From contig NZ_CP012401.1 of NCBI RefSeq assembly GCF_001305595.1, positions 1,375,001 to 1,439,000 on the forward strand: 64,000 nucleotides of DNA, given 5' to 3'. Positions within the stretch are counted from its first letter, which is position 1. The number at the start of each line of letters is the position of its first letter. Shown here piece by piece: positions 8,059-63,843 of this stretch. The translations under genes and the position numbers were made by a program. This DNA comes from Azospirillum thiophilum (GTDB taxonomy: Bacteria > Pseudomonadota > Alphaproteobacteria > Azospirillales > Azospirillaceae). A model generated the notes under the pieces. That model searched no databases. It was not told the DNA's origin and was given only the letters and a program-made list of their open reading frames with translations.

Positions 8059-8071
8059 CGTGCGTCCGGGC

Positions 8072-41887: not shown

Positions 41888-41916
41888 GCGCGTGGCCTCC
41901 TGGCCGCTGCGGCAAA

Positions 41917-46227: not shown

Positions 46228-46425
46228 CTACGCCACCCCCTGCCGGGCGATGCGCAGGGCCTCGGCCAATATCTCCGGGTCGCCGATGTGGTTGGCGAGC
46301 AGCAGGATCAGCTTGGCGTTCAGGCGGGCGCTCTGGTCGGCGGTCAGGTCGCGGTGGCTGTCGATCAGCATCTGATAGACGTCGTCCGGACTGGCGAAGC
46401 GCTGGTCGGTGATGAGGTCGGCCAT
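46228..46425 (-). CDS. DUF2783 family small protein
   Basis: This 65-residue helical protein (MADLITDQRFASPDDVYQML...) matches the DUF2783 pattern. Genes of this family commonly sit beside FAD-dependent aromatic hydroxylases. Here it follows the flavoprotein hydroxylase in the same transcription unit 54 bases later, so it may be an accessory subunit of that enzyme, though no role is proven. Confidence 0.8.
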   Translation of the reverse strand: MADLITDQRFASPDDVYQMLIDSHRDLTADQSARLNAKLILLLANHIGDPEILAEALRIARQGVA

Positions 46426-46479
46426 TGAGGGGGGCTCCAGGAGATCGGGGGAATCGGCGGCCGGCTTGGGGCGTCCGGC

Positions 46480-48159
46480 TCAGCGTCCGGTGCAGCGGTC
46501 CAGCGCTGCCGACAGCGCGGCGGCGTCGAAGCGGCGCCAGCGGGCGGCGACATGCTGGTCGGGGCGGATCAGATAGACACTGCCGGGCGTCAGGTCATAG
46601 CGCTCGCGGATGCGGCCGGCACTGTCCACCAGCTCCCCGGCGATGCCGCGGCGCCGCTCGGTCACCGCATGCCAGGCGAGCGGCAGCGGACCGCGGGCGA
46701 GGTCATCCAGCGCTGTCGCGACCTCCGCCGGCACCGGCCCGTTCCCGTCCCCGTCCCCGTCATTGCCCATGGCGGCGTAGAGCACGGTGAAGCGCCCGTC
46801 GAGCGCCTCCATCAGCCATCCCGCTTGCCCGTCGCGCTCGACCGGCGCGTCGGTGGCCGGCGCCCCCGGCACCATGCGGCCGGCGAAGGCGTCGCCGTCG
46901 GGCGTGTTCAGCGGGCTGCCGGTATAGGTGGTGGGGGTGGACAGCCGGCCGGAATTGACCAGCGCGCGGGCGAAGGGCAGATCGACCGCCAGTTCCAGCA
47001 CCGCGTCGCGGAAGACGCGGCTGATGTCGCTCTTGGGCGTGATGAAGTCGGTGGAGCGGGTCGAGTTCAGGATGTTTTCCTTCGCTGCCGCCACCCGCTC
47101 GTCGCTGTAGCTGTCGAGCAGCGTCTCGGGCGCCTTGCCCTCCAGCACCAGCGCCAGCTTCCACACCAGATTGTCGGCATCGGGCACGCCGCTGTTGGCG
47201 CCGCGGGCGCCGAAGGGCGAGACCTGATGCGCCGAGTCGCCGGCGAACAGGATGCGCCCATGGCGGAACCGCTCCAGCCGCCGGCACTGGAAGGTGTAGA
47301 CCGAGACCCATTCCAGTTCGAACGGGGTGTCGGCCCCCAGCATCGCCTGGACGCGCGGGATGACGCGCTCCGGCTTCTTCTCCTCCTCCGGGTCGGCATC
47401 CCATCCCAGCTGGAAATCCAGCCGCCAGACATTGTCGGGCTGCATGTGCAGCAGCGCCGACTGCCTGCGGTGGAAGGGCGGGTCGAACCAGAACCAGCGC
47501 TCGGCCGGGAAATCGGCCGTCATCACCACGTCGGCGATCAGGAAACGGTCCTTGAAGACCTCGCCCTGGAACTCCAGCCCCAGCATCTTGCGCACCGACG
47601 ATTTGGCGCCGTCGCAGGCGACCACCCAATCGGCCTCCACCGCATGGACGCCGTCGGGCGTCTCCACCTGGAGCACGACATGGTCGGGCTCGGCCTTGGC
47701 GGATATGACGCGGGAGAGCCAGCGCAGGTCGATCAGGTCGCTCTTCCGCGCCTCGGTGACCAGGAACTCCTCCAGGTGATATTGCTGGAGGTTGATGAAG
47801 GCCGGGATCTTGTGGTCCGGTTCCGGCAGCAGGTCGAACTGGTAGACCATGCGGTCGCCGTTGAAGACCTTGCCGATCTTCCACACCACGCCCTTGTCGA
47901 TCATGCGTTGGCCGACGCCCAGCCGGTCCCACACCTCCAGCGCGCGCTTGGCATAGCAGACGGCGCGGCTGCCGACGCTGACGGTGTCCTCGGCGTCGAG
48001 CACCACCACCGGCACCCCCTTGCGCGCGAAGTCGAGCGCCGCGGTCAGCCCGACCGGGCCGGCGCCGATGACCACCACCGGATGGCGGCGGACGGTGCCG
48101 GTACGCTGCTCCTCCGATGGTGTGAAGCTGTATTTGGGATAGCTGTAGGTCGCGTGCAT
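46480..48159 (-). CDS. FAD-dependent aromatic hydroxylase, MhaA/MhpA-like
   Basis: This 559-residue class A flavoprotein monooxygenase has the FAD-binding GxGxxG (VVVIGAGPVGLTAA), the DG motif ACDGAKSSVR and the second FAD motif FAGDSAHQVSPFGARG. Members hydroxylate phenolic acids such as 3-(3-hydroxyphenyl)propionate (MhpA) or 3-hydroxyphenylacetate (MhaA, giving homogentisate). The adjacent homogentisate dioxygenase, fumarylacetoacetase and maleylacetoacetate isomerase favour a MhaA-like role; this is context. GGAGGAAA lies upstream of 48159, which is preferred to 48198. The promoter contains an FNR-type box. Confidence 0.8.
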   Translation of the reverse strand: MHATYSYPKYSFTPSEEQRTGTVRRHPVVVIGAGPVGLTAALDFARKGVPVVVLDAEDTVSVGSRAVCYAKRALEVWDRLGVGQRMIDKGVVWKIGKVFNGDRMVYQFDLLPEPDHKIPAFINLQQYHLEEFLVTEARKSDLIDLRWLSRVISAKAEPDHVVLQVETPDGVHAVEADWVVACDGAKSSVRKMLGLEFQGEVFKDRFLIADVVMTADFPAERWFWFDPPFHRRQSALLHMQPDNVWRLDFQLGWDADPEEEKKPERVIPRVQAMLGADTPFELEWVSVYTFQCRRLERFRHGRILFAGDSAHQVSPFGARGANSGVPDADNLVWKLALVLEGKAPETLLDSYSDERVAAAKENILNSTRSTDFITPKSDISRVFRDAVLELAVDLPFARALVNSGRLSTPTTYTGSPLNTPDGDAFAGRMVPGAPATDAPVERDGQAGWLMEALDGRFTVLYAAMGNDGDGDGNGPVPAEVATALDDLARGPLPLAWHAVTERRRGIAGELVDSAGRIRERYDLTPGSVYLIRPDQHVAARWRRFDAAALSAALDRCTGR

Positions 48160-48242
48160 TGGGCGTTTCCTCCCCCGGAAACCGATGTCGGGATGCATTG
48201 GCGGATCGCTGTGGGGCGAATTGTTATTGTTGCCAACGATAC

Positions 48243-48258
48243 AGTTTCATTTGATACC
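48243..48258. promoter_or_regulatory. Half-matching MarR-type operator (weak)
   Basis: AGTTTC-ATTT-GATACC at 48243-48258 matches the first half of the perfect AGTTTC-AAAC-GAAACT site at 49664 (9 of 13 central positions). It lies in the flavoprotein promoter and overlaps the FNR-type box. Confidence 0.4.
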
Positions 48259-48264
48259 AATCAA
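48251..48264. promoter_or_regulatory. FNR/Anr/FixK-type box upstream of the flavoprotein hydroxylase
   Basis: TTGAT-ACCA-ATCAA at 48251-48264 is a perfect match to the TTGAT-N4-ATCAA consensus bound by FNR-type regulators. It is about 90 bases upstream of the flavoprotein start and 145 bases upstream of the PaaY-like start, in the divergent region. Confidence 0.65.
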
Positions 48265-48408
48265 GCCCCCGCTGGACCACCGGCCGGTCCGTCGGTGAAG
48301 CGATACAGACATGCTTACCATGACGGAAAATCAGTATCGCGTACAGGATGCCTCGGTGTAGCCTTGCGGCAAAAGACCGGACAGAGACACCCGAGGACCG
48401 ACCCGATC

Positions 48409-49050
48409 ATGACCGCATCCGCCAGGACCGCCCCCGCCTTGCCGCGCCCCACCGTCTACGCCATCGACGGCGTTATCCCCGTCATCGACCCGACCGCTTT
48501 CGTCCATCCCTCCGCCGTGCTGATCGGCGACGTGGTGGTGGGCCCGGGCTGCTATGTCGGGCCCTGCGCGAGTTTGCGCGGCGATTTCGGCCGGATCGTG
48601 CTGCAACGGGGCAGCAACGTGCAGGACAATTGCACGCTCCATGCCTTTCCCGGCCATGACGCCATCGTCGAGGAGGACGGGCATGTCGGCCATGGCGCCG
48701 TGCTGCACGGCTGCGTCGTCCGCCGCAACGCGCTGGTCGGCATGAATGTGGTGGTGATGGACGGGGCGGAGATCGGCGAGGAGTCGATCGTCGCCGCCAT
48801 GGCCTTCGTCAAGGCCGGCTTCGTCGTGCCGCCGCGCACGCTGGCCGCCGGCCTGCCGGCGAAGGTCGTGCGCGACCTGCGCCCCGACGAGATCGCCTGG
48901 AAGGGCGAGGGGACGGAGGAGTACCAGCGCCTCGCCCGCCGCTCGCTCGCCACCATGGTCGCCTGCGCTCCGCTGGAGGCGGAGGAGCCGGGCCGCGGCC
49001 GGGTCGATGCCGGCACCAGCCAGCCGCTGCACAAGGTGAAGGGGGGCTGA
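48409..49050 (+). CDS. PaaY-like left-handed beta-helix protein (gamma carbonic anhydrase fold)
   Basis: This 213-residue protein has hexapeptide repeats ([20 protein letters not shown]..., then VGPCASLRGDFGRIV and QDNCTLHAFPGHDAIV). The VYAIDGVIPVIDPTAFVHPSA start is typical of PaaY-type proteins of phenylacetate degradation. PaaY acts as a thioesterase that recycles CoA in the paa pathway. No other paa enzyme gene lies in the window, so its role here is uncertain. GAGGA lies upstream of the ATG at 48409. It is divergent from the flavoprotein. Confidence 0.78.
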   Translation: MTASARTAPALPRPTVYAIDGVIPVIDPTAFVHPSAVLIGDVVVGPGCYVGPCASLRGDFGRIVLQRGSNVQDNCTLHAFPGHDAIVEEDGHVGHGAVLHGCVVRRNALVGMNVVVMDGAEIGEESIVAAMAFVKAGFVVPPRTLAAGLPAKVVRDLRPDEIAWKGEGTEEYQRLARRSLATMVACAPLEAEEPGRGRVDAGTSQPLHKVKGG

Positions 49051-49053
49051 GCG

Positions 49054-49596
49054 TCAGCCCGCCGCCGGCTCCGCCTCCGCGGCGGCCGGCGCCGGGCGGG
49101 TCGCCAGCTGGTCGGCGCGGGCCTGGAGACGGGTCAGCAGCGTGTCGAGCTGCGCCTGCTCGTCGGCCGACAGGGCGTCCGTCACCTCGGCCTGATAGGT
49201 CAGCGCCATCGGCACGATCTCCGCATAGATGTCCAGCGCCTTGGGCGTCAGGGTCAGCAGGGCCTTGCGCCGGTCGGTGTCGCCCGATTCGCGCAGGATC
49301 AGCGCCGAATCGAGCATGCGGCTGATGGCGCGGCTGACCTGCACCTTGTCCATCGCCGTGCGCTGCGCGATCTCGCCCGCGCTCATCGTCTCGCCGCCGC
49401 CCAACACGGCGATGATCCGCCATTCCGGGATGGTGATGCCGAACCGCTTCTCGTACAGCTTGGCCAGCGTGTGGCTGACCGTGTTGGCCAGCACCGACAG
49501 CCGGTAGGGCAGGAAGCGCGGCAGGTGCAGCGCCGGCAGGTCGGCCGGGGCCGAGGCTGGTTTGGCGGCGGTTCGGGTACGGCGGGCGGGCGGCAT
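49054..49596 (-). CDS. MarR-family transcriptional regulator
   Basis: This regulator of about 180 residues has a winged-helix domain (GITIPEWRIIAVLGGGETMS, QRTAMDKVQVSRAISRML, then DRRKALLTLTPKALD) typical of MarR proteins. It is divergent from the homogentisate dioxygenase. The start at 49596 (MPPARRTRTAAK) is chosen because an earlier ATG at 49671 would lie inside the operator. A perfect inverted repeat in the gap (49664-49679) is the likely operator. It probably represses the homogentisate genes until an aromatic intermediate binds. Confidence 0.88.
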   Translation of the reverse strand: MPPARRTRTAAKPASAPADLPALHLPRFLPYRLSVLANTVSHTLAKLYEKRFGITIPEWRIIAVLGGGETMSAGEIAQRTAMDKVQVSRAISRMLDSALILRESGDTDRRKALLTLTPKALDIYAEIVPMALTYQAEVTDALSADEQAQLDTLLTRLQARADQLATRPAPAAAEAEPAAG

Positions 49597-49663
49597 CGGC
49601 GGGATATCGTCTGAATCGTGAAGGGTAGGGTCCCATCCTGCGCCGGAATTTCGCGCTTGCAAC

Positions 49664-49679
49664 AGTTTCAAACGAAACT
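49664..49679. promoter_or_regulatory. Candidate MarR operator between marR and hmgA
   Basis: AGTTTC (49664-49669) and GAAACT (49674-49679) form a perfect inverted repeat with an AAAC spacer in the divergent promoter region. Confidence 0.65.
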
Positions 49680-49753
49680 ATTATGGGTGCCAATGGAACA
49701 AGCCTGCCGGTTCGCCCAGTCGCGGCTGCCGGCGGCATGAAGGGGGAAGCGCC

Positions 49754-50890
49754 ATGAAGAGCTGGATTTCGTTTCCGAAGGTCGAGGGCACCGCATCGCG
49801 TCAGGCCCATGTCCGGCTGCCGGCCGGCACCTACGAGCGCGAGATGGGGCGCGAGGGCTTCTTCGGCCCGGCCACCCAGATGCACCATGCCCACCCGCCG
49901 ACCGGCTGGACCAGCTTCGACGGGCCGCTGCGCCCGCGCGCCTTCGACCTGAACAACATCGACCGCATCCCCAGCCAAATTCCAGGCTGCCCCTTGGAGG
50001 CGCCGGCCCTGATGGGCAACGGCGCGACCCAGGTGCGGCTGTGGCGCTTCAAGGGCAAGATGGACCATCTGGTCCGCAACGCCGACGGCGACGATTTGCT
50101 GTTCTTCCACCAGGGCGGCGGCCACCTCTACTGCGACTACGGCCATCTGGAGGTGCGGGAGGGCGACTATGTCGTGCTGCCGCGCAACACCTGCTGGCGG
50201 CTGGAGACCGACGAGGCGGTGATGGTGCTGATGGTCGAGGCCACCGGCGACGCCTACAAGCTGCCGCACAAGGGGTTGGTCGGCACCCACGCCATCTTCG
50301 ATCCGGCGGTGCTGGACGTCCCGTCGCTGGACGACGCCTTCCAGGCGCAGAAGCACGAGCGCGAGACGCTGGTTCGGGTCAGGAAGCGCGGGCAGCTCTG
50401 TGCCATGACCTATCCGTTCAACCCGCTCGACGCGGTGGGCTGGCACGGCGACCTCGCCCCGGTGCGGCTGAACTGGCGCGACATCCGGCCGCTGATGAGC
50501 CACCGTTACCATCTGCCGCCCTCGGCGCACACCACCTGGGCCGCCGGCCGCTTCATCGTCTGCACCTTCGTGCCGCGCCCGATCGAGTCGGATCCGGAGG
50601 CGCTGAAGCTGCCCTACTACCACTCCAACGAGGATTACGACGAGGTGCTGTTCTATCACCGCGGCCAGTTCTTCTCGCGCGACAACATCCATCCCGGCAT
50701 GGTGACCTACCACCCCTCGGGCTTCCCGCACGGGCCGCATCCGAAGGCCTACGAGGTGGCGCAGAAGTTCGAGCGCAAGGAAACCGACGAGGTCGCCGTG
50801 ATGATCGATACCCGCGACCCGCTGGACGTCTATCCGGCGATGGAGGGCGTCGAGTGGGGCGGCTACGCCGACAGCTGGAAGGTGAAATGA
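49754..50890 (+). CDS. hmgA: Homogentisate 1,2-dioxygenase-like ring-cleavage enzyme
   Basis: This 378-residue cupin dioxygenase should open the ring of homogentisate to maleylacetoacetate. The N-terminal YEREMGREGFFGPATQMHHA and the C-terminal iron-site regions PYYHSNEDYDEVLFYHRG (H290, E293/E297) and YHPSGFPHGPHP (H320, H326) agree with the homogentisate dioxygenase family; the length is shorter than the classic enzyme of about 430-440 residues. GGGGGAAG precedes the ATG. It is followed by fumarylacetoacetase. A related substrate such as a hydroxylated homogentisate is possible. Confidence 0.85.
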   Translation: MKSWISFPKVEGTASRQAHVRLPAGTYEREMGREGFFGPATQMHHAHPPTGWTSFDGPLRPRAFDLNNIDRIPSQIPGCPLEAPALMGNGATQVRLWRFKGKMDHLVRNADGDDLLFFHQGGGHLYCDYGHLEVREGDYVVLPRNTCWRLETDEAVMVLMVEATGDAYKLPHKGLVGTHAIFDPAVLDVPSLDDAFQAQKHERETLVRVRKRGQLCAMTYPFNPLDAVGWHGDLAPVRLNWRDIRPLMSHRYHLPPSAHTTWAAGRFIVCTFVPRPIESDPEALKLPYYHSNEDYDEVLFYHRGQFFSRDNIHPGMVTYHPSGFPHGPHPKAYEVAQKFERKETDEVAVMIDTRDPLDVYPAMEGVEWGGYADSWKVK

Positions 50891-50969
50891 GCGGCTGCCT
50901 GGAAACAAGGGGCCGGAAACCGGGGACAAGGCTGCCGGACGCTGATCTGACAGGAAGGGAAGGGACCGA

Positions 50970-51986
50970 ATGAAACTGGCAAGTCTGAAGGCGGGCGGGC
51001 GCGACGGCACCCTCGTCGTGGTGTCGCGCGACCTGACCCGCGCCATCCCGGTGCCCGCCGTGGCGAAAACGCTGCAGGCGGCGCTGGACGAGTGGGAGGC
51101 GCTGGCGCCGAAGCTGGAGGAGGCCTACCGCGCGCTGAACGCCGATCCGGCGTCCGGCCGGCCCTTCGACCCGGCCGAGGCGGCCTCGCCGCTGCCGCGC
51201 GCCTACCAGTGGGCGGATGGGTCGGCCTACGTCAACCATGTGGAGCTGGTGCGCAAGGCCCGCGGGGCGGAGATGCCGCCCAGTTTCTGGACCGACCCGC
51301 TGATGTATCAGGGCTGTTCCGACGGCTTCCTGGCGCCGATGGACCCGATCCCGGCGGCGACCGAGGAGTGGGGAGTCGATTTCGAGGCGGAGATCGCCGT
51401 CGTCACCGACGACGTGCCGATGGGCGTCTCGGCCGAGGCGGCGCGCGGCCATGTCCGGCTGCTGATGCTGGTCAACGACGTGTCCTTGCGCAACCTGATC
51501 CCGGCGGAGCTGGGCAAGGGCTTCGGCTTCTTCCAGTCCAAGCCGGCCTCCAGCTTCTCGCCCATCGCGGTGACGCCGGACGAGCTGGGCGGGGCCTGGG
51601 ATGGTGCCAAGCTGCATCGCCCGCTGGTGACGACGCTGAACGGCGAGCCCTTCGGTCGTCCGGATGCCGGCACCGACATGACCTTCGACTTCCCGACCCT
51701 GATCGCCCATGCCGCGAAGACCCGCCATCTGGCGGCCGGCAGCATCGTCGGGTCCGGCACGGTGTCGAACAAGCTGGACGGCGGCCCCGGCAAGCCGATC
51801 GGTGCCGGCGGCGTCGGCTATTCCTGCCTTGCCGAATTGCGGACGATCGAGACCATCGAGCATGGCGCGCCGAAGACGCCCTTCCTGCGCTTCGGCGACC
51901 GCGTGCGGATCGAGCTGTTCGATGCGGCCGGCGCCAGCGTGTTCGGCGCCATCGAACAGGAGATGGTCCGGTACGAGGGACCGTGA
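50970..51986 (+). CDS. fahA: Fumarylacetoacetate hydrolase family enzyme
   Basis: This 338-residue protein has the FAH domain with the acidic metal-binding residues in VDFEAEIAVVTDDVP and an adjacent SFSPIAVTPDELG. The C-terminal GVGYSCLAELRTIETIEHG is typical. It should split fumarylacetoacetate into fumarate and acetoacetate. GGAAGGGAAGGGA precedes the ATG. It is in one operon with the dioxygenase. Confidence 0.9.
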   Translation: MKLASLKAGGRDGTLVVVSRDLTRAIPVPAVAKTLQAALDEWEALAPKLEEAYRALNADPASGRPFDPAEAASPLPRAYQWADGSAYVNHVELVRKARGAEMPPSFWTDPLMYQGCSDGFLAPMDPIPAATEEWGVDFEAEIAVVTDDVPMGVSAEAARGHVRLLMLVNDVSLRNLIPAELGKGFGFFQSKPASSFSPIAVTPDELGGAWDGAKLHRPLVTTLNGEPFGRPDAGTDMTFDFPTLIAHAAKTRHLAAGSIVGSGTVSNKLDGGPGKPIGAGGVGYSCLAELRTIETIEHGAPKTPFLRFGDRVRIELFDAAGASVFGAIEQEMVRYEGP

Positions 51987-52258
51987 GCCCGGCGTTCCGC
52001 TGAATTCGAGGTTGTGGAATTGGCGTCGGCGGGACCCGCATGCCCTTCCGGCGCCTTTTCGCATTTGCAGCAATAACCTGTCGCCGGCCAGTATGGCATG
52101 GCAGGTCGGTCCGAAGGATTGTTGCGCTTGCCCGGCGGTCCGGAGATTTGACGTGCCATCCGATCGTTATCGAATATAAGGTGCCGCCCCCTATCCCTAT
52201 TTGGTGCCGCCCCTCCGTTCATTTCCGAACCTTTGGCGGACCTGACGAGGTGCGCGGC

Positions 52259-54340
52259 ATGAAGGCCAGGTTCAGGACGAAGATCATCATCGGTGTCGCG
52301 GCGGTGCTGGCGGCTGGGGCCGCCGCGGTGACGGCGGTGTCGCTGACATTGTCGCGCGATGCCGGGCACAAGGCGGCGCTTGCCCTGGCCGCCGAAACCG
52401 CCGACCGCCATGGCGCACTGGTCGCCGCCGATCTCTCCGCCGCGCTGGACGCCGCCCGTGCAACCGCCGCGCTGGTCGAGGTGGAGCGCTCCACCGGAAC
52501 CCCGCGGCGCGAGACGGTGAACCGCTACCTGCGCCGTGCCGCCGAGGCCAACCCGCTCTATGCCGGGGTCTGGGTCGACATGGCCGACGACGGCTTCGAC
52601 GGCCGCGACAGGGAATTCGCCGCGCACGACCGTTCCACCGAGATTCTCGGCCTGCCGAAGACCGGCCGGATGAGCCTGCTGTGGCTGCCGGGGGACAAGG
52701 GGGTACAGGCCGACGACAGCGACGGCTATACCTTCTCCGACGTGCAGGAGAAGGACTATTACAAGGCGGCGGCCACCGCGCGGAAGGCGGTGCTGACCGA
52801 ACCCTATCTGGACGATTTCACCAAGCGGCTGATGACCAGCGCCGCCGCGCCGGTGATGGACGGCGGCAAGGCCGGCCGCGTCATCGGGGTCGCCGGCGTC
52901 GACATGGCGCTGACCGGGCTGACCGATCTGGTCCGCTCGGTGAAGCCCTATGGCGACGGCTTCGCCGCGGTGCTGACCGGCTCCGGCCTCTATGTCGCCC
53001 ATCCCGACGGCGGCCGGCTGGCGAAGACCGCCGACGATCTGCCGGAAGCCGCCCGCCGCGCCGTCGCCGAGGGACGGGCGTTCGACGGGATCGTCGAACT
53101 GGCCGGGGCGCCGCATTACCTTCGACTGGCGCCGGTCCGCTTCTCCGGGGCGGACGGTGCCTGGTCCTTCATGGTGGCGGCGCCGCAATCCAGCGTGATG
53201 GCCGATGCCAACCGTCTGACCCTGCTGACCGTGCTGGTCAGCCTGGGCTGCGTGGCGCTCGGCTGTCTGGTGGCGTGGAAGGTCGGCGACGGCATCGCCC
53301 GTCCGGTCACGGCGTTGATCGTCGCCATGGACCGTCTGGCGGCCGGCGATCTCGAAACCGCGGTGCCGGGCGCCGACCGCGACGACGAGGCCGGCGGCAT
53401 GGCCCGCGCGGTCGAGGTGTTCAAGGACGGTCTGGTCCGCGCCCGCGAGCTGGACCGCCGGCAACAGGCCGAATGGCACGCCAAGGAGGCCCGCGCCGCG
53501 GCGCTGTCCCAGTTGCAGGCCGGGTTCGAGAACCGGGTCGGCGGGCTGACCGGGGCGCTGGCGTCGGCCGCCCAGCAGCTCGAATCGACGGCCCGCGCCT
53601 TGACCGGCATCGCCGACCACAGCCTCGACCGGTCGGAGCAGGTCGCCTCCTCCGCCCGTGCCGCCGCCGAGAATGTGCAGACCGCCGCCGCCGCGACGGA
53701 GGAGCTGTCGGCCTCGGTCCAGGACATCGGCCGGCAGGTCGGGGAGTCCGCCCGCATCGCCGATGCCGCCGTCGCCGACGTCAAGCGGGCCGACGATGCC
53801 GTCGCCGTGCTGGCCGAGAGCGCCGAGCGGATCGGCACGGTGGTCGGGCTGATCAACGACATCGCCGGCCAGACCAACCTCCTGGCGTTGAACGCCACCA
53901 TCGAGGCCGCCCGCGCCGGGGAGGCCGGCAAGGGCTTCGCCGTCGTGGCGGGCGAGGTGAAGAACCTCGCCAACCAGACCGCCCGCGCCACCGAGGACAT
54001 CGTCGGCCAGGTCAAGGGCATCCGCGACGCCACCCAGGTGGCGGTGACCGCCGTGCATGGCATCAGCGAGACCATCGCCCAGGTCAGCCGCATCGCATCG
54101 GGCATCGCCGCGGCGGTCGACCAGCAGGCGGCGGCGACCCAGGAGATCGCCCGCAGCGTGATCCAGGCGGCCGACGGCGCGCAGGAGGTCAGCGGCGGCA
54201 TGGGCCAGATCCGATCGGGCGCCGGGGAAACCGGGGCCGCCGCCGACCAGCTTCTCGCCGCCGCCGCCGCGCTGGCCGGCCAGTCCAAGGATCTGACCCG
54301 CGAGATCGACGGCTTCATCGAGGGCGTCCGCAGGGCGTAA
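52259..54340 (+). CDS. Methyl-accepting chemotaxis protein with periplasmic dCache-type sensor
   Basis: This 693-residue receptor has two transmembrane segments ([20 protein letters not shown] near the N-terminus and [20 protein letters not shown] near residue 330). A periplasmic double Cache-type domain lies between them, with [20 protein letters not shown] and [24 protein letters not shown] region and a signalling domain ([40 protein letters not shown]) follow. In this cluster it probably senses an aromatic acid for chemotaxis. The start at 52259 is chosen over 52040 for the [15 protein letters not shown] beginning. Confidence 0.9.
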
Positions 54341-54350
54341 GAGCCCTTCG

Positions 54351-55403: not shown

Positions 55404-55446
55404 CGGGGGGATCCTTGGGTGGAGAGTAAGGTTTGGTCGGCGTTTG

Positions 55447-55560: not shown

Positions 55561-55575
55561 CTCAACGGTGCGCGC

Positions 55576-56604: not shown

Positions 56605-56669
56605 GGGGGCGTTTCCTCCGCGGGAATTCGGCGGGCGCTCACATTTCCATCGGCGCCCTGTGGTCTTTA

Positions 56670-56712
56670 TATGACACAGAAAAATCAGATCATCAACGGT
56701 ATCTGTATCATA
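56670..56712. promoter_or_regulatory. PaaX-type operator candidate at the diiron oxygenase promoter
   Basis: TATGACACAG (56670-56679) pairs with CTGTATCATA (56703-56712), 9 of 10 positions, spaced 23 bases. It lies about 70-110 bases before the oxygenase start. The same motif pair is found at the paaX side (57999-58042). Confidence 0.65.
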
Positions 56713-56773
56713 ATGACAAGGCGGAGAAGTCCCGTTAACCCATTGCCAGGAAAAGAAATATGTACGAAAGCGG

Positions 56774-56795
56774 CGAATTGATCCAGATCAATTCG
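56774..56795. promoter_or_regulatory. Perfect FNR/Anr/FixK-type box upstream of the oxygenase
   Basis: A perfect 10-bp inverted repeat (CGAATTGATC then GATCAATTCG, 2-base spacer) contains TTGAT-CCAG-ATCAA at 56778-56791, a perfect FNR-type consensus. It lies about 170 bases upstream of the oxygenase start. Confidence 0.7.
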
Positions 56796-56863
56796 TTCGT
56801 TCAACGGAGTTTATCGGCCGGATCGGTATCGGAAACCGCCACCCGAATGGCAGGCGGAAGCGC

Positions 56864-57808
56864 TCAGCCGGCGGCGATGGTTTCCAGCCCGCCGAAGCGC
56901 CCGTGGAAGGACGGCTGGGCATCGGGCAGCGGGCCGTTGGCGGTGGTCGCCGCCTGCATCAGGAAGGCTTCCGATGGGCCTGCCAGCCGGCGGTAGAGGT
57001 TGCGCGTCAGCATCCGCGATTCCTGGCCCGGCCAGTCGGCCGGAAGCAGGTCGGGCGGCAGCATCGGGTCGCGCAGCAGGATGCGTCGGAAATCATGGAT
57101 CATCAGCGTGCGCAGGACGAAGCAGGCGGCGGGGTCCAGGGCCTCCGCCGCGTCGACCGCCGCCCAGACCGGACGGAAATGATCCAGGAACGCCGCATAA
57201 TCATGTTCGAGCTGATCGATGTCCCAGCAGCCGCGCACCAGATCGCGCAGCGCCCCGAACCCTTCGGCCCGGTCCAGGCTGGCCTTCATGTGGACGATCC
57301 GGTCGGCGACCCCCAGCTCCGCCAGCGACCGGTGCATCGCCGCCTCGTCGCAGTTGGGATGGGCGTAGACGGTGGCCGATGCGGCGCCGAAGCCCTGCCA
57401 GGTCAATTCCCGCCGCAAGGCGTCGCGGGTCTCGGCGTCGAGCGCGTTGGGCGGCACCAGCAGCAGGTCCCAGCCGCGGTCCCACTCGCGGGCCAGCGGC
57501 GCGTAGATCCGCCGTTCCGCCGCCGCGAAGCGCTCCTTGCCGCTGTCGGTCACCCGGTAGAAGCTGCGCCGGCCGATCTGGGTGTTGGTCAGCCAATCGT
57601 CCTTGCACAGCCGGAAGACCGAGGTGCGGACGATCCGCTCGCTCATCCCGAACAGCCCCATCAGCTCGATCAGGCTGCCCAGCCACAGCGACCCGCCATG
57701 CGGCAGAACCGCGTCGCCATAGGCGGTGATGATCAGCGACTTGGCCCGCGGCGCGATGGCTTCTGTCAGCTGGGCGGCGAGGTCTTCGGGGCGGCGTGGG
57801 CGGGCCAT
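56864..57808 (-). CDS. PaaX-family transcriptional regulator
   Basis: This 314-residue regulator has the PaaX N-terminal winged helix (RAKSLIITAYGDAVLPHGGS, SLIELMGLFGMSERIVRTSV, FRLCKDDWLTNTQIGRRSFY) and the C-terminal PaaX domain. PaaX represses phenylacetate genes and responds to phenylacetyl-CoA; the effector for this relative is unknown. The start at 57808 (MARPRRPEDLAAQL) is used; a longer frame has an arginine-rich leader. It is in the same direction as, and upstream of, the oxygenase, and divergent from the transporter. Confidence 0.88.
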   Translation of the reverse strand: MARPRRPEDLAAQLTEAIAPRAKSLIITAYGDAVLPHGGSLWLGSLIELMGLFGMSERIVRTSVFRLCKDDWLTNTQIGRRSFYRVTDSGKERFAAAERRIYAPLAREWDRGWDLLLVPPNALDAETRDALRRELTWQGFGAASATVYAHPNCDEAAMHRSLAELGVADRIVHMKASLDRAEGFGALRDLVRGCWDIDQLEHDYAAFLDHFRPVWAAVDAAEALDPAACFVLRTLMIHDFRRILLRDPMLPPDLLPADWPGQESRMLTRNLYRRLAGPSEAFLMQAATTANGPLPDAQPSFHGRFGGLETIAAG

Positions 57809-57998
57809 GCGGCGGGGGCGTCCTTGTTGCGGGCGGAACTGTTGCGGGCGCGATGCGATGCGGACGGCACGGCGATGGGGCGGCGTCGGGAGTTGTATAC
57901 GCAACCCGCCCCCCCGAGGGCCAGCGCCGCGACGGGGCGGGACGCGCCGGCGTCTCCGGATAGGATGGTGGCCGGACTTTCCGTTTGACAATCATTAA

Positions 57999-58042
57999 TA
58001 TGATACACTACGGTTGGTTCATTGAAGTAAAAATGTGTCATA
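57999..58042. promoter_or_regulatory. PaaX-type operator candidate in the paaX/transporter region
   Basis: TATGATACA (57999-58007) and TGTGTCATA (58034-58042) match as an inverted repeat in 8 of 9 positions with a 26-base spacer, nearly the same spacing as the pair at 56670-56712. It fits autoregulation of paaX and control of the transporter. Confidence 0.65.
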
Positions 58043-58160
58043 AAACGAAGCATCGGTTTCCCTCCCCGCCGTTCGCGGGACCGCGGAAGGACGGGACGGG
58101 CACCGGGAGTATCCGGATCGCGATTATGGTCTTGGTAGCGGAAATTTTTCTTCAGAAATC

Positions 58161-58176
58161 ATTTCGTTTGAAACAT
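58161..58176. promoter_or_regulatory. MarR-type operator candidate upstream of the ABC transporter
   Basis: ATTTCGTTTGAAACAT at 58161-58176; its reverse complement shares the 13-base core GTTTCAAACGAAA with the marR/hmgA operator at 49664. It lies about 85-100 bases before the substrate-binding protein start. Confidence 0.6.
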
Positions 58177-58258
58177 TATGTAAGTCAAATCGTCCCGCCG
58201 AACCGGGACCGGGCCGTCGCCCGGGCCGGTGATAAGGGGGCAGCCAAGGGAGGTCATC

Positions 58259-59422
58259 TTGCGCAGACGCCTGCTTTCCACCATCGCCCTTTCCATCACC
58301 GCCATGTTTGCGGTGTCCGGCATGCTGTCCGGTGCGGCGGTCGCCGCCGATCCGATCAAGGTCGGCGCCATCGTCTCCGCCACCGGCCCGGCCTCCTTCC
58401 TCGGCGATCCCGAGAAGAAGGTGCTGGAGCTCTATGCCGACCGCATCAACCAGGCGGGCGGCATCGCTGGCCGGCCGGTCCAGCTGACCGTCTATGACGA
58501 CGGCGGCGCGGCGGACAAGGCGGCCTCCTTCACCAAGCGCCTGATCGAGAGCGACGGCGTCGACGTGATCGTCGGCGGCACCACGACCGCGGCGACCATG
58601 GCGGCGGTGCCGCTGGTGGAGCGGGCCGGCGTGCCCTTCATCTCGCTGGCCGGCGCGGTGGTGATCGTGGAGCCGGTGAAGAAGTGGGTGTTCAAGACCC
58701 CGCACACCGACCGCATGGCCGCCGAGAAGGTGATGGAGGACATGAAGGCGCGCGGGCTGACCAGGCTGGCGCTGCTGTCGGAGGATTCCGGCTTCGGCAA
58801 GTCCGGCCGCGAGCAGACGCTGGCCGTCGCCAAGGAGCGCGGGATCGAGCTGGTCGCCGACGAAACTTATGGCGCCAAGGACACCGACGTCACCGCCCAG
58901 CTGACCAAGGTGAAGAACAACGCCGCGGCGCAGGCGGTGCTGGTGTTTGGCCTCGGCCAGGGGCCGGCGGTGGTGACCAAGAACTACCGCCAGCTCGGCA
59001 TCTCGCTGCCGCTCTACCAGTCGCACGGCGTGGCGTCGAAGGAATATATCCGGCTGGCCGGCGGGGCCGCCGAGGGTGTCCGCCTGCCGGCCGCCGGTCT
59101 GGTCGTCGCGGCGCAGCTGCCGGACAGCGACCCGCAGAAGAAGGTGGCGACCGAGTTCACCAAAATCTACGAGGACAGCTTCAGCTCGGAGGTCTCGACC
59201 TTCGCCGGCCATGCCTATGACGGGCTGATGATCGCGCTGGACGCGGTGAAGCGCGCCGGCGGCACCGACAAGGCCAAGCTGCGCGACGCCATCGAGCAGA
59301 CCAAGGGCTATGTCGGCACCGGCGGCATCGTGACCATGAGCGCCAAGGACCACATGGGCCTGACGCTGGACGCCTTCCACATGGTGGAGGTGAAACAGGG
59401 TGACTGGGCGCTGGTGAAGTAA
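58259..59422 (+). CDS. ABC transporter substrate-binding protein (branched-chain amino acid/aromatic acid type)
   Basis: This 387-residue periplasmic protein has a signal peptide (LLSTIALSITAMFAVSGM... to AVAADPIKVG) and the LivK-like fold (VGAIVSATGPASFLGDPEKK, GLTRLALLSEDSGFGKSGRE). It starts with TTG at 58259 after GGGAGG; a GTG at 58229 is less likely. Such proteins in aromatic clusters often bind aromatic acids rather than amino acids; the ligand is not known. First gene of the importer operon. Confidence 0.88.
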   Translation: MRRRLLSTIALSITAMFAVSGMLSGAAVAADPIKVGAIVSATGPASFLGDPEKKVLELYADRINQAGGIAGRPVQLTVYDDGGAADKAASFTKRLIESDGVDVIVGGTTTAATMAAVPLVERAGVPFISLAGAVVIVEPVKKWVFKTPHTDRMAAEKVMEDMKARGLTRLALLSEDSGFGKSGREQTLAVAKERGIELVADETYGAKDTDVTAQLTKVKNNAAAQAVLVFGLGQGPAVVTKNYRQLGISLPLYQSHGVASKEYIRLAGGAAEGVRLPAAGLVVAAQLPDSDPQKKVATEFTKIYEDSFSSEVSTFAGHAYDGLMIALDAVKRAGGTDKAKLRDAIEQTKGYVGTGGIVTMSAKDHMGLTLDAFHMVEVKQGDWALVK

Positions 59423-59456
59423 GGGTAGCGGCCCTCTCTCGCACTCAAGCCACGAT

Positions 59457-59560
59457 GCCCCCTCCCTAACCCTCCCCCACCTGTGGTGGGAGAGGGGACT
59501 GCCGCCGCTTTCCCGTGAGGCACCCTCTCCCTCGCAGAGGGGGAGGGTCGGGGAGGGGGC
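59457..59560. repeat. CCCTCCC/GGGAGGG dispersed repeat, copy D
   Basis: It begins CCCCCTCCCTAACCCTCCCC and shares GGGAGAGGGGACTGCCGC with copies C and E. It lies between the substrate-binding protein and the first permease gene, and ends near GGAGGGGGC at 59560. Confidence 0.75.
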
Positions 59561-59582
59561 CTGCGAAGCGGAAACCCAAACG

Positions 59583-60458
59583 ATGTTCGCGGAACTGCTG
59601 CAATACATGCTGTCGGGGCTGACCATCGGCGCGATCTATGCGCTGGCGGGGCTCGGCTTCTCGATCATCTACAATGCCAGCCACGTCATCAACTTCGCCC
59701 AGGGCGAGTTCATCATGATCGGCGGCATGGCGTCGGCGACCCTGACGGCGTCGGGGGTGCCGCTGCCGCTGGCGATCATGATCGGCTGCGGCGGCGCCAT
59801 GCTGGTCGGCGTCCTGGTGGCGAAATTCGCGGTGGAACGGGCGCGCAACGCCTCGACCGTCACCCTGATCATCATCACCATCGGCGCGTCGATCTTCCTG
59901 CGCGGCATCGCCGAACTCATCTGGGGCAAGGACTTCAAGCGGCTCGACGCCTTCTCCGGCGAGACGCCGATCCAGATCCTGGGCGCCTCGATGCAGCCGC
60001 AGTCGCTGTGGGTGGTAGGCACGGCCGCCGTGCTGATCGTCGCCATCGGCCTGTTCTTCGCCAGGACGCTGACCGGCAAGGCGATGCTCGCCACCTCGCA
60101 CAACCGGCTGGCCGCCCAGCTGGTCGGCATCGACGTCAAGCGGGTGGTGCTCGCCTCCTTCGCGCTGTCGGCGGCGCTGGGTGCCGTCGGCGGGGCGGTG
60201 GTGGCTCCGATCACCTTCTCCTACACCGAGATGGGCATCATGCTGGGGCTGAAGGGCTTCACCGCCGCGGTGCTGGGGGGGCTGGGCCACGGGCCGGGCG
60301 CGGTGGCCGGCGGCTTGATCGTCGGCGTCGCCGAGGCGCTGGGCGCCGGCTACATCTCGTCGGCCTACAAGGACGCCATCGCCTTCGTCATCATCCTGGC
60401 CGTCCTCCTCTTCATGCCGAACGGGCTGTTCGGCAAACGCGGCACCGAACGGGTGTAA
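59583..60458 (+). CDS. ABC transporter permease, LivH-type
   Basis: This 291-residue protein has about eight transmembrane segments (LSGLTIGAIYALAGLGFSII and others) and the LivH loop motif NRLAAQLVGIDVKRV. It forms one half of the membrane channel with the LivM-like protein that follows. The start is 22 bases after the dispersed repeat. Confidence 0.92.
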   Translation: MFAELLQYMLSGLTIGAIYALAGLGFSIIYNASHVINFAQGEFIMIGGMASATLTASGVPLPLAIMIGCGGAMLVGVLVAKFAVERARNASTVTLIIITIGASIFLRGIAELIWGKDFKRLDAFSGETPIQILGASMQPQSLWVVGTAAVLIVAIGLFFARTLTGKAMLATSHNRLAAQLVGIDVKRVVLASFALSAALGAVGGAVVAPITFSYTEMGIMLGLKGFTAAVLGGLGHGPGAVAGGLIVGVAEALGAGYISSAYKDAIAFVIILAVLLFMPNGLFGKRGTERV

Positions 60459-60472
60459 GGACCTTCAAGACG

Positions 60473-61420
60473 ATGAACGCACTCCTTCACGGGCGGCTGA
60501 CCGGCCTCATGGTACTGGCTGCCGCGATCGCGGTCCTGCCGGCCTTCCTGCCCAACAACTTCTATCTCGACATCGCCATCCTGGCCGGCTTCAACGCCGT
60601 GGTCTGCGTCGGGCTGAACCTGCTGATCGGCTATGCCGGGCAGATCAGCCTCGGCCATGCCGGCTTCTTCGGCATCGGCGCCTATGCGTCGGGCGTGCTG
60701 GTCGGAACCTACGGCTGGCCGCCGGTGCTGGCGCTGCTGGCCGGGGCCGCCGTCGTCGGGCTGCTGGCCTTCGCGGTCGCCAAGCCGATCCTGCGGCTGA
60801 AGGGCCATTACCTCGCCATGGCGACACTCGGCATCGGCATCATCGTGTCGATCGTGCTGCGCACCGAAAGCGGCCTGACCGGCGGCCCCGACGGCATGAT
60901 GGTCGAGCCGTTCCGCATCTTCGGGATCGAGCTGTATGGCGAGAAGGTCTGGTACTGGGTGGTCGGCGTCCTGCTGGTCGGGGTGGTCTGGCTGTCCCTG
61001 AACCTGATCGACAGCCCGATGGGCCGGGCGCTGCGCGCCGTCCACGGGTCGGAGGTGGCGGCCGAGGTGGTCGGCGTCGACACCGCGCGCTTCAAGGTGC
61101 TGGTCTTCGTGCTGTCGGCGGTGTTCGCCAGCGTGGCCGGCAGCCTGTTCGCCCATTACGCCGGCCTGATCACCCCGGCCAAGGCCGACTTCTTCAAGTC
61201 GATCGAGCTGGTGACCATGGTGGTGTTCGGCGGCATGGCCTCGACCTTCGGCGCGGTGGTCGGCGCGGTGGTGCTGACGCTGCTGCCGCAGGCGCTGACC
61301 ATGTTCCAGGACTACCAGCAGATCGTGCTGGGCGGCATCCTGATGGCGACGATGGTGTTCATGCCCAAGGGCCTGCTTCCCACCCTGGCGGCACTGCTCC
61401 CGGCGCGGAGGCGGGCATGA
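60473..61420 (+). CDS. ABC transporter permease, LivM-type
   Basis: This 315-residue permease has multiple transmembrane segments and the LivM features NLLIGYAGQISLGHAGFFGI and GRALRAVHGSEVAAEVVGVD. It pairs with the LivH-type protein. Its stop overlaps the next ATP-binding gene start (ATGA). Confidence 0.92.
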   Translation: MNALLHGRLTGLMVLAAAIAVLPAFLPNNFYLDIAILAGFNAVVCVGLNLLIGYAGQISLGHAGFFGIGAYASGVLVGTYGWPPVLALLAGAAVVGLLAFAVAKPILRLKGHYLAMATLGIGIIVSIVLRTESGLTGGPDGMMVEPFRIFGIELYGEKVWYWVVGVLLVGVVWLSLNLIDSPMGRALRAVHGSEVAAEVVGVDTARFKVLVFVLSAVFASVAGSLFAHYAGLITPAKADFFKSIELVTMVVFGGMASTFGAVVGAVVLTLLPQALTMFQDYQQIVLGGILMATMVFMPKGLLPTLAALLPARRRA

Positions 61421-62241
61421 AGATGCTGGCAACCACAGAGATTTCCCTGGATATGACGACCCAGGCCCGCCGCATCGGCCCGCCGATCCTGAAGGTGGAG
61501 CATCTCAGCCGCGAATTCGGCGGCGTGCTCGCCGTCGGCGATCTCAGCTTCACCATCGCGGCCGGCGACATCCATTCGATCATCGGGCCGAACGGGGCGG
61601 GCAAGACCACGCTGTTCAACCTGGTGACCGGCGTCTACAAGCCGTCGGGCGGCAGGGTGCTGTTCGACGGGGCCGACGTGTCGGGCATGGCGCCCTACCG
61701 GCTGGCCGCCCGCGGCATGTCGCGCACCTTCCAGAACCTGCAGATCTTCTTCAACATGACGGCTCTGGAGAACGTCATGGTGGGGCGGCACCTGCACCTG
61801 GACACCCGGCTGCTGCCGGCGCTGTTCCGCTTCCCCTCGCTGGTGCGCAAGGACCGCGAGGCGCGCGACCGCGCGGTGCAGCTGATGACCGATGTCGGGC
61901 TGGAGAAATACATCGACGCCGATGCCGCCTCCATGCCCTACGGCGCGCTGAAGCGGCTGGAGATCGCCCGTGCGCTGGCGTCGGAGCCGAAGCTTCTGCT
62001 GCTGGACGAGCCGGCGGCCGGCCTGAACGCCACCGAAAGCCGCGAGATCGACGAGGTCATCAAGACCGTGGCGGGCAACGGCGTCACCATCGTCCTGGTG
62101 GAGCACGACATGAAGATGGTGATGGGCATCTCGCACCGGATCACCGCGCTGAACCAGGGCCGCATGCTGGCCGAGGGCACGCCGCAGGAGGTGGGAGCCA
62201 ACCCGGATGTCATCGCCGCCTATCTCGGCGCCGCACCGTAA
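61417..62241 (+). CDS. ABC transporter ATP-binding protein, LivG-type
   Basis: This 274-residue ATPase has Walker A GPNGAGKTT, a Q loop in RTFQNLQIF, Walker B LLLLDEPAAG and the H loop VEHDM. The expected ABC signature LSGGQ is replaced by MPYGALKRLEIARAL, as seen in many LivG-type proteins. It has a 27-residue N-terminal extension before ILKVEHLSREFGG. Coupled to the LivM gene. Confidence 0.92.
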   Translation: MKMLATTEISLDMTTQARRIGPPILKVEHLSREFGGVLAVGDLSFTIAAGDIHSIIGPNGAGKTTLFNLVTGVYKPSGGRVLFDGADVSGMAPYRLAARGMSRTFQNLQIFFNMTALENVMVGRHLHLDTRLLPALFRFPSLVRKDREARDRAVQLMTDVGLEKYIDADAASMPYGALKRLEIARALASEPKLLLLDEPAAGLNATESREIDEVIKTVAGNGVTIVLVEHDMKMVMGISHRITALNQGRMLAEGTPQEVGANPDVIAAYLGAAP

Positions 62242-62254
62242 GGAGGGAGCCCCC

Positions 62255-62959
62255 ATGCTTCTGGAGATCGAGGGCCTCAACAGCCATTACGGCCGCATCC
62301 ACGCGCTGAAATCGGCCAGCCTGACCGTACGGGAGGGCGAGCTGGTGGCGCTGGTTGGCGCCAACGGGGCCGGCAAGACGACGCTGCTGCGCACCCTGTC
62401 CGGCGTCCATCCCGCCAGCAGCGGGCGCATCACCTTCGACGGCTGCGACATCACCCGGATGAAATCGTCGCGCCGGGTGGCGGAGGGCGTGGTGCAGGTG
62501 CCGGAGGGCCGCCAGCTGTTCGGGCCGCAGACGGTCGAGGACAATCTTAGGCTCGGCGCCTTCCGCCGCGGCAGCGGCAGGCCGGACGAGGACATCGGCC
62601 GGCTGTACGAGATGTTCCCGATGCTGAAGGTCAAGCGCGACCAGCCCGCCGGCACCCTGTCGGGCGGCCAGCAGCAGATCGTGGCATTGGGCCGCGCGCT
62701 GATGGCGAAACCCCGGCTGCTGCTGCTGGACGAGCCCAGCATGGGGCTGGCGCCGCTGCTGGTGGCGGAGATCTTCGACGCGGTGCAGCGGCTGAAGCGC
62801 GAGGGCACCACCATCCTGCTGGTCGAGCAGAACGCCCATGCGGCGCTCGCCATCGCCGACCGCGGCTATGTGATCGAGACCGGCGAGATCGTGCTGAGCG
62901 ACAGCGGCGCCGCCCTGCTGAGCAACGAGCGGGTGCGGCAGGCTTATCTCGGGCTGTGA
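62255..62959 (+). CDS. ABC transporter ATP-binding protein, LivF-type
   Basis: This 234-residue ATPase has Walker A GANGAGKTTLL, signature LSGGQQQ, Walker B LLLLDEPSMG and the H loop LVEQNAH. AGGAGGG precedes the ATG at 62255. With the LivG-type protein it powers the importer. Confidence 0.93.
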   Translation: MLLEIEGLNSHYGRIHALKSASLTVREGELVALVGANGAGKTTLLRTLSGVHPASSGRITFDGCDITRMKSSRRVAEGVVQVPEGRQLFGPQTVEDNLRLGAFRRGSGRPDEDIGRLYEMFPMLKVKRDQPAGTLSGGQQQIVALGRALMAKPRLLLLDEPSMGLAPLLVAEIFDAVQRLKREGTTILLVEQNAHAALAIADRGYVIETGEIVLSDSGAALLSNERVRQAYLGL

Positions 62960-62979
62960 TCAGGGTATCGGCTGCCGAT

Positions 62980-63159
62980 GCCCCCTCCCTAACCCTCCCC
63001 CGCTCTCGGCGGACCTATGGTCCGCCTGCCGCGTCAGCACAAAGCGCAGCTTTGTGCGAGAGCTTCGCGGGAGAGGGGACTGCCGCCGCTCCTTTGCAAA
63101 ATTCCCCGCAAAGCTCCTACCCCCTCTCCCGCGGAGCGGGGGAGGGATGGGGAGGGGGC
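62980..63159. repeat. CCCTCCC/GGGAGGG dispersed repeat, copy E (long)
   Basis: It begins with CCCCCTCCCTAACCCTCCCC and carries GGGAGAGGGGACTGCCGCCGCT, with an extra inner inverted repeat near 63010-63060. It ends GGAGGGGGC near 63159. It lies between the importer and the isomerase gene. Confidence 0.75.
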
Positions 63160-63192
63160 AACCGCCGCGACACTTCAACGGACACCAATCCC

Positions 63193-63843
63193 GTGAAACT
63201 CCACACCTACTTCCGCTCCTCCGCCGCCTACCGGGTGCGCATCGCGCTCAACCTCAAGGGGCTGGCGCCGGACCAGGCCTTCGTCCATCTGCGCCGGGGG
63301 GAGCAGGCGAAGCCGCCCTTCGCCGACCTCAACCCGGAGCGTCTGGTCCCGGCGCTGGAGGTCGACGGGCCGGACGGGCACCATGTGCTGACCCAGTCGC
63401 TCGCCATCATCGAGTATCTGGACGAGACCCATCCCGCCCCGCCGCTGCTGCCGGCGGATCCGGCCGGTCGCGCCCGGGTGCGGGCGCTGGCGCTGGCGGT
63501 GGCCTGCGATCTCCACCCGCTCAACAATCTGCGGGTGCTTGGCCATCTGAAGGCGATGGGCCACCCCCAGGAGGAGGTCGACGGCTGGTATCGCCACTGG
63601 ATCGCCATCGGGCTGACGGCGCTGGAGGCGCAGCTTGCCGGCGATCCGCGCACCGGGCGGTTCTGCCATGGCGACACGCCCGGTCTGGCCGACGTGGTGC
63701 TGGTGCCGCAGATGGCGAACGCCCGCCGGTTCGGCTGCCCGCTGGACGCCTATCCGACGCTGCTGCGCATCGACGGGGCCTGCCGTGCCCTGCCGGCCTT
63801 CGCCGCCGCGGCTCCCGACCGGCAACCCGACGCCGAGGCGTGA
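63193..63843 (+). CDS. maiA: Maleylacetoacetate isomerase
   Basis: This 216-residue zeta-class GST-like enzyme has the SSAAYRVRIALNLKG catalytic loop of maleylacetoacetate isomerases, the glutathione site with LVPALEV and QSLAIIEYLDE, and a C-terminal helical domain. It turns maleylacetoacetate into fumarylacetoacetate with glutathione, completing the homogentisate route between hmgA and the fumarylacetoacetase. GTG at 63193 is the start. Confidence 0.92.
   Translation: MKLHTYFRSSAAYRVRIALNLKGLAPDQAFVHLRRGEQAKPPFADLNPERLVPALEVDGPDGHHVLTQSLAIIEYLDETHPAPPLLPADPAGRARVRALALAVACDLHPLNNLRVLGHLKAMGHPQEEVDGWYRHWIAIGLTALEAQLAGDPRTGRFCHGDTPGLADVVLVPQMANARRFGCPLDAYPTLLRIDGACRALPAFAAAAPDRQPDAEA

Follow-up and report, generated by a model that had tools for sequence, protein, structure and literature searches.

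A stretch of 64,000 nucleotides from the 7.6 Mb genome of Azospirillum thiophilum (C1:1375001-1439000, hereafter the window) encodes a 342-residue protein resembling the R2 family of diiron proteins, here called DIIRON, together with a 2Fe-2S/FAD/NAD reductase, here called RED. Comparison across genomes indicates that the two proteins probably form an alternative phenylacetyl-coenzyme A (phenylacetyl-CoA) 1,2-epoxidase, which would be the sole enzyme of this kind found in certain bacteria and would elsewhere accompany the canonical PaaABCDE complex, perhaps at low oxygen. What is proposed is a known reaction for an undescribed enzyme family. The two genes and their control region are arranged as follows.

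54351-55403, minus strand: RED, 2Fe-2S/FAD/NAD reductase and proposed electron donor (PF00111, PF00970 and PF00175, in that order)
55576-56604, minus strand: DIIRON, 342-residue R2-like diiron protein, which would be the catalytic part of an alternative phenylacetyl-CoA 1,2-epoxidase
56672-56710, minus strand: PaaX-type operator-like site TGATAC-N27-GTGTCA in the DIIRON promoter, the sole N27 site (at most one mismatch) within the 64 kb
56778-56791, minus strand: FNR/FixK-type box, an exact TTGATNNNNATCAA within a perfect 10+10 bp palindrome (56774-56795)
56864-57808, minus strand: PaaX repressor, of a phenylacetyl-CoA-responsive family (TIGR02277, 304 bits, cut-off 264.55); the start at 57808 is our choice, and the open frame extends to 57991

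Relatives of DIIRON were sought by scanning GTDB genomes, and the best 80 of the 214 found were kept (genome counts below total 81), so that the floor of 77% identity among them partly reflects selection. The closest are from Azospirillum, with 97-99% identity in the first ten loci, and among 299 sampled Pseudomonadota genomes DIIRON is present in two, the window's own and one other. A clustering of open reading frames, taken only as a lead, did not show the main DIIRON family among the clusters listed. RED lies downstream on the same strand, within 800 bp, in all 80 loci. Neighbourhoods were examined for up to 10 kb on each side, often less, with genes called by identity thresholds. PaaX, whose gene in the window shares the strand of DIIRON and lies upstream, is found in 18/18 Azospirillum loci and PaaY in 14/18, while the 62 loci from other genera carry at least two lower-pathway paa genes in 20 cases, PaaX in 16 and PaaA in 7; 32 of them have some lower-pathway paa gene, PaaX or PaaY. 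The Sedimenticola genes run PaaK-J-H-G, PaaZ, DIIRON, RED and PaaX, with no PaaA found in the genome. In Vitreoscilla, DIIRON-RED stands at the end of a paa cluster that includes PaaABCDE, and the pair likewise shares a cluster with PaaABCDE in Marinospirillum and Nitrincola. The recognized neighbours of DIIRON are CoA-dependent paa genes, and DIIRON-RED belongs with phenylacetate catabolism, as had been suggested in an earlier note made from the letters of the window, though by way of the CoA-dependent paa pathway.

The canonical epoxidase is frequently missing where DIIRON occurs. PaaA (TIGR02156) scores over its cut-off in 49 of 81 DIIRON genomes (29/42 and 20/39 in two sets), leaving 32 without it, and 26 of these 32 (12/13 and 14/19) retain the ring-epoxide isomerase PaaG (TIGR02280), which is over cut-off in 63 of the 81. 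PaaC is absent as well, with 0/20 PaaA-lacking genomes tested having it over cut-off compared with 5/5 controls. In the background of 299 Pseudomonadota, PaaG is over cut-off in 40 genomes, of which 38 have PaaA over cut-off too (36/38 once the two DIIRON genomes are set aside). PaaG without PaaA is therefore found in 26/63 DIIRON genomes versus 2/38 DIIRON-free ones (Fisher p=4e-5), and in 23/60 versus 2/38 (p=1.3e-4) after removal of three equivocal genomes (L046, L014 and L015), p-values that are only a guide because the DIIRON loci were chosen by similarity, are mutually related and include many metagenome-assembled genomes (MAGs). The background count of PaaG may be slightly low, at most eight candidates having been scored per genome and more in the DIIRON genomes. 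The PaaA-lacking set includes the isolates S. selenatireducens, S. hydrogenitrophicus, A. halopraeferens and Rhodobium orientis. The PaaA state changes 10 times on the best tree of the 81 DIIRON sequences, in which many forks are unsupported, and the starred branches of a smaller tree force at least three changes. Clusters with PaaG and PaaZ in genomes without PaaA need an epoxidase, and DIIRON-RED is the only candidate found by our searches in some lineages, namely Sedimenticola, Arcobacter, magnetospirilla, A. halopraeferens and Rhodobium. It coexists with PaaABCDE in Azospirillum, Azoarcus, Marinospirillum and others.

Two further groups of genomes were noted in these searches. Two with PaaG over cut-off have neither PaaA over cut-off nor DIIRON (L112 in G287 and L113 in G168), which points to a further epoxidase or to some other role of PaaG. 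Two MAGs from Oligoflexia and Bacteriovoracia (L025 in G352 and L076 in G375) have DIIRON-RED and weak PaaA-like matches of 107-114 bits. PaaG is not over cut-off in either, and the PaaA-like match of G352 adjoins an enoyl-CoA hydratase-like match.

As far as the sites tell, DIIRON would be under phenylacetyl-CoA-responsive control. According to a review that quotes published E. coli and B. cenocepacia sites, the PaaX site is TGATTC(N27)GAATCA, the PaaR site is ACCGACCGGTCGGTT, and phenylacetyl-CoA is the inducer for both repressors (PMC9493321). The scan took in the 320 bp before DIIRON in the window and in 78 loci, 79 regions in all, two others (L072 and L080) having too little upstream sequence. 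With TGATWC-gap-GWATCA and at most one mismatch, gaps of 26, 27 and 28 occur in 7, 17 and 9 regions, respectively, and any other gap from 18 to 36 in 0-2. PaaX-type operators are thus present in 33 of 79 regions (Azospirillum 11/19, others 22/60), where about 0.55 would be expected from a background of 0.007 per region, summed over gaps 26-28 and taken from every third locus. With up to two mismatches allowed, 19/79 regions contain the PaaR core, compared with about 0.45 expected (0.0057 per region). A site of one type or the other is found in 52/79 regions (Azospirillum 11/19, others 41/60), and none has both. The 8-mer TGTATCAT appears in 21/67 regions, with 0.004 expected per region. When two mismatches are allowed, a gap of 32 is also seen in 15/79 regions, compared with 33 at gap 27. 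PaaA served as a control, with a PaaX-type site in 4/10 of its loci. A PaaX consensus that we had presumed, WWTRTGATTCGYGWT, was discarded, with 3 matches in the window against 6.75 expected and none near DIIRON. In the same scan, the canonical paa cluster of the window's own genome (L115, on contig C4) has no PaaX-type site, though PaaX is encoded beside DIIRON.

More distant relatives of DIIRON, with 50-53% identity, occur in Variovorax and Nonomuraea (L085-L088), and none of these four loci has a PaaX, PaaR or FNR site upstream. In the annotated Variovorax loci L085 and L086, they stand beside indolepyruvate:ferredoxin oxidoreductase, an AMP-binding ligase, a thiolase and an enoyl-CoA hydratase. 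These relatives are possibly oxygenases of other arylacetyl-CoA esters.

No Pfam or NCBIfam family matches DIIRON over its cut-off, a search of the PDB returned no significant sequence match, only one chance-level row, and the match to AurF (PF11583) is weak, at 20.2 bits versus a gathering cut-off of 29.6. Two NCBIfam families match at E<=0.1, and neither is PaaA (TIGR02156), PaaC (TIGR02158) or BoxB, a profile for which is presumably present in that collection. Alignment of the DIIRON family with 10 PaaA sequences by hhalign gave a probability of 1.6%, both alignments being of low diversity, and PaaA is not among the best 50 rows of each fold search, a listing that leaves room for a PaaA-like fold; identity to R2-like proteins is 8-14% among the matches listed. 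The predicted fold is of the R2 type, with two ExxH motifs and further carboxylates, and the six candidate metal ligands, predicted as D81, E115, H118, E186, E216 and H219, are invariant across relatives. RED has its Fer2 domain first, the order found in BenC and MmoC. DIIRON has the look of a diiron oxygenase served by a reductase of its own. The earlier note had held that it matches no described enzyme and differs from PaaA and BoxB, and had proposed a profile and structure search of the 342-residue protein; the results agree with that view. In a literature search, none of the titles, abstract openings and passages listed described the family, with subscription journals and preprints outside its coverage, so an earlier description is possible.

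In the proposed mechanism, RED would take up electrons from NAD(P)H and hand them on, by way of FAD and its 2Fe-2S centre, to the R2-like diiron site of DIIRON, which would activate O2 and add one oxygen to the ring of phenylacetyl-CoA. The resulting ring-1,2-epoxide would be isomerized by PaaG to oxepin-CoA. We infer the reaction and its CoA substrate from features that were computed, namely the gene linkage, the absence of PaaA (and of PaaC where tested), the operator-like sites and the predicted fold. PaaX, or PaaR in many betaproteobacteria, would repress DIIRON-RED until phenylacetyl-CoA appears. In the case of the window, the pair would be made once phenylacetyl-CoA forms, and probably also once oxygen falls, and the epoxide would pass to PaaG, PaaH, PaaJ and a PaaN-like protein, all of which are encoded on C4 (L115) with PaaABCDE and PaaK.

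The role of oxygen is suggested by a second class of sites. The sequence TTGATNNNNATCAA, which we take to be the FNR/FixK consensus, is found upstream of DIIRON in 34/79 regions including the window, compared with about 0.9 expected; the 78 loci other than the window account for 33 boxes with at most one mismatch (20 exact), where 0.011 would be expected per region. Such boxes precede DIIRON in 32/49 PaaA-positive but only 2/30 PaaA-negative genomes (16/33 and 2/27 outside Azospirillum). Standing beside PaaABCDE, often with an FNR-type box, DIIRON-RED may therefore work at scarce oxygen, a role that is plausible from these sites. It could be, although we place this slightly short of an even chance, that two unrelated diiron enzymes are chosen by oxygen, with PaaABCDE serving when it is plentiful and DIIRON-RED, induced through phenylacetyl-CoA and FNR/FixK-type control, when it is scarce, the latter acting alone in some microaerophiles and others. 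Two results speak against a simple division of labour of this kind: FNR-type boxes also precede PaaA in 4/10 loci, that of the window's own genome with one mismatch, and canonical PaaA of Bradyrhizobium diazoefficiens is reported to rise under microoxia (PMC6515984). The association between FNR-type boxes and PaaA is not significant, the independent pairs on the tree being too few (3 and 4). An account by FNR alone has been softened for these three reasons. In Azoarcus BH72, the paa cluster is reported to fall under nitrogen fixation (PMC3916325). By eye, the spacing between the box in the window and a -10 element is not that of a standard class II site, and only the box is claimed.

The proposal that DIIRON-RED is a phenylacetyl-CoA epoxidase also has to accommodate observations that count against it. 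No lower-pathway paa gene, PaaX or PaaY was seen in the stretch examined around DIIRON in 30/62 non-Azospirillum loci. Six of the 32 PaaA-lacking genomes have no PaaG over cut-off, two of them scoring close below it, and one PaaA-lacking genome (L074) gives no match over cut-off for either PaaG or PaaK. MAGs and drafts are numerous among the PaaA-lacking genomes, so that some absences may be gaps; L046 contains a PaaA fragment; and A. soli and A. isscasi (L014 and L015) have no canonical PaaA but a divergent PaaA-like gene beside PaaX and DIIRON (69 and 68 bits, respectively; a 272-residue protein at 7600-8418 on the minus strand of L014). As to the operators, the half-site variant TGATAC was taken post hoc from the same regions, the spacer optimum being the independent part, and the E. 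coli half-site TGATTC is not enriched (6/67 regions, about 6 expected). Fold searches rank R2-like ligand-binding oxidases (R2lox) and R2 of ribonucleotide reductase (RNR) first.

Among other explanations, the one that survives best, though we consider it unlikely, is that DIIRON-RED belongs to the phenylacetyl-CoA regulon but has a different arylacetyl-CoA as its substrate, such as one that carries a hydroxyl group, and extends the work of PaaABCDE instead of taking its place. The 49 of 81 DIIRON genomes that also have PaaA would fit, as would the Variovorax relatives (51-53% identity) beside indolepyruvate:ferredoxin oxidoreductase and beta-oxidation genes. However, clusters with PaaG and PaaZ in PaaA-less genomes need an epoxidase, and the strong conservation across phyla suits a single substrate, even if the identity floor is partly a product of selection. 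Quite improbable is an accessory function in the paa pathway, such as removal or detoxification of the epoxide, with the PaaA-lacking genomes being incomplete or having another epoxidase. The epoxide is described as toxic in two sources (PMC13186573, PMC3916325), the cluster is shared with PaaABCDE in three genera, and PaaG occurs in two background genomes that lack both PaaA over cut-off and DIIRON; against this, DIIRON is strongly tied to the absence of PaaA among genomes with PaaG, isolates included, and PaaC is missing too.

The window contains further genes in the set spanning 46480-63843, and every gene named in the earlier note, including the homogentisate set, flavoprotein, chemoreceptor, five-gene importer, DIIRON and the reductase, was confirmed by open reading frames together with profiles or reading.

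46480-48198, minus strand: FAD monooxygenase (flavoprotein) of the PRK08132 subfamily, a proposed ring hydroxylase yielding homogentisate (NF006002, 868 bits)
48409-49050, plus strand: PaaY-like thioesterase (TIGR02287, 295 bits, below the cut-off of 319.6)
49054-49671, minus strand: MarR-family regulator (PF12802), likely controlling the homogentisate genes; it adjoins homogentisate 1,2-dioxygenase in two other genomes (L092/L111 and L093/L116)
49754-50890, plus strand: short-form homogentisate 1,2-dioxygenase (HGD) of the HgmA family, 378 residues (PF20510 over cut-off)
50970-51986, plus strand: fumarylacetoacetate hydrolase (FAH; PF01557, PF18288)
52259-54340, plus strand: methyl-accepting chemoreceptor (open reading frame, identity by reading), not seen at the same place in several Azospirillum relatives
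58229-59422, plus strand: substrate-binding protein of a Liv-type importer (PF13458)
59583-60458, plus strand: LivH-like permease; this and the next three are open reading frames identified by reading, with gene order kept in Azospirillum relatives
60455-61420, plus strand: LivM-like permease
61417-62241, plus strand: LivG-like ATPase
62255-62959, plus strand: LivF-like ATPase (start chosen by us)
63190-63843, plus strand: MaiA, maleylacetoacetate isomerase (TIGR01262, 271 bits, over cut-off; start approximate)

Outside this set, AbrB/MazE-like and MazF-like frames were recognized by eye at 41298-42100 (minus strand), close to the beginning of thrS and opposite to it.

The genes for homogentisate breakdown form an ordinary module of their own, which recurs without DIIRON. 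HGD is a short form, which scores 79 bits with TIGR01015 (cut-off 510.75) and exceeds the cut-off of PF20510; a canonical HmgA is encoded elsewhere in the genome (C4:32327), and His, Glu and His of HGD align with what we take to be its iron-ligand positions. HGD matches at E<=1e-40 were found in 35 of the 299 sampled genomes of the phylum. Among the matches listed, FAH adjoins HGD in 20/20 loci, the window's own included, the relatives in the 19 others having 59-66% identity. In another alphaproteobacterium (L111), MaiA, the flavoprotein, FAH, HGD, MarR, PaaX and PaaABCDE follow in that order, and the homogentisate module can therefore adjoin either kind of epoxidase. As a weaker inference from gene content alone, this branch may salvage 2-hydroxyphenylacetate, given in one source as the phenolic breakdown product of the epoxide (PMC3916325). 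After a possible release from CoA by PaaY, this compound could become homogentisate through hydroxylation by the flavoprotein, and HGD, MaiA and FAH would complete the breakdown.

This arrangement bears on the reading of the earlier note, in which DIIRON-RED, dedicated to homogentisate formation, possibly hydroxylates free phenylacetate without CoA, and the flavoprotein then makes homogentisate from the product. Such a route is very doubtful: the flavoprotein (12/18), HGD (12/18) and FAH (14/18) do lie near DIIRON in Azospirillum loci, and no CoA ligase is seen in the window cluster, but in the stretch examined none of 62 loci elsewhere has HGD, FAH, MaiA or the flavoprotein over threshold beside DIIRON, HGD-FAH forms its own operon elsewhere, PaaK is over cut-off in 35/42 DIIRON genomes tested, and the DIIRON promoters have operator-like sites of repressors that sense CoA esters. 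The proposed conserved linkage of oxygenase, reductase, PaaX and hmgA proved to be peculiar to Azospirillum in our sample, and neither action without CoA nor dedication to homogentisate is supported, given the paa neighbours, the operator-like sites and the genomes with PaaG but not PaaA.

The phenylacetyl-CoA epoxidase catalyses the oxygen-dependent step that commits a central aromatic pathway. If DIIRON-RED is indeed such an enzyme, aerobic degradation of phenylacetate, a common aromatic acid, would occur in organisms scored as lacking it by marker-gene surveys. A survey of 6,536 genomes from May 2026 filtered ligases by co-localization with PaaABCDE, reported epoxidase-free configurations as only rare and recommended PaaA/PaaC as robust pathway markers (PMC13186573); it would probably overlook organisms with DIIRON only or place them in the wrong class. 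An epoxidase made of one protein and one reductase would also be easier to handle, in study and in use, than a complex of many subunits.

Alternative enzymes have a precedent in the same pathway, since GapMind includes an alternative oxepin-CoA hydrolase, although this concerns ring opening and not the epoxidase (PMC9007349). With PaaABCDE of the E. coli type, DIIRON-RED would share the reaction, the place in the paa regulon, diiron chemistry and a flavin/2Fe-2S reductase partner. In contrast, one catalytic protein is seen, compared with PaaA and PaaC (plus B and D) in the canonical complex, no search having been made for a coupling protein like that of other diiron hydroxylases. DIIRON matches neither the PaaA nor the PaaC profile, with no relationship detectable at the profile level, and judged by PaaC, which is over cut-off in none of the 20 PaaA-lacking DIIRON genomes tested, the multi-subunit complex is missing from these, PaaB and PaaD not having been searched genome-wide. 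RED has an N-terminal Fer2 domain, whereas the domain order of PaaE is the reverse. The BoxAB benzoyl-CoA epoxidase likewise consists of a single diiron oxygenase and a reductase acting on an aryl-CoA ring, but DIIRON has no BoxB match, RED matches BoxA at 16.5 bits only, and the operators are of the paa type. The AurF N-oxygenases match below cut-off, and the gene context suggests no amine substrate. What sets DIIRON apart from R2lox and RNR R2 is its dedicated reductase and its catabolic context.

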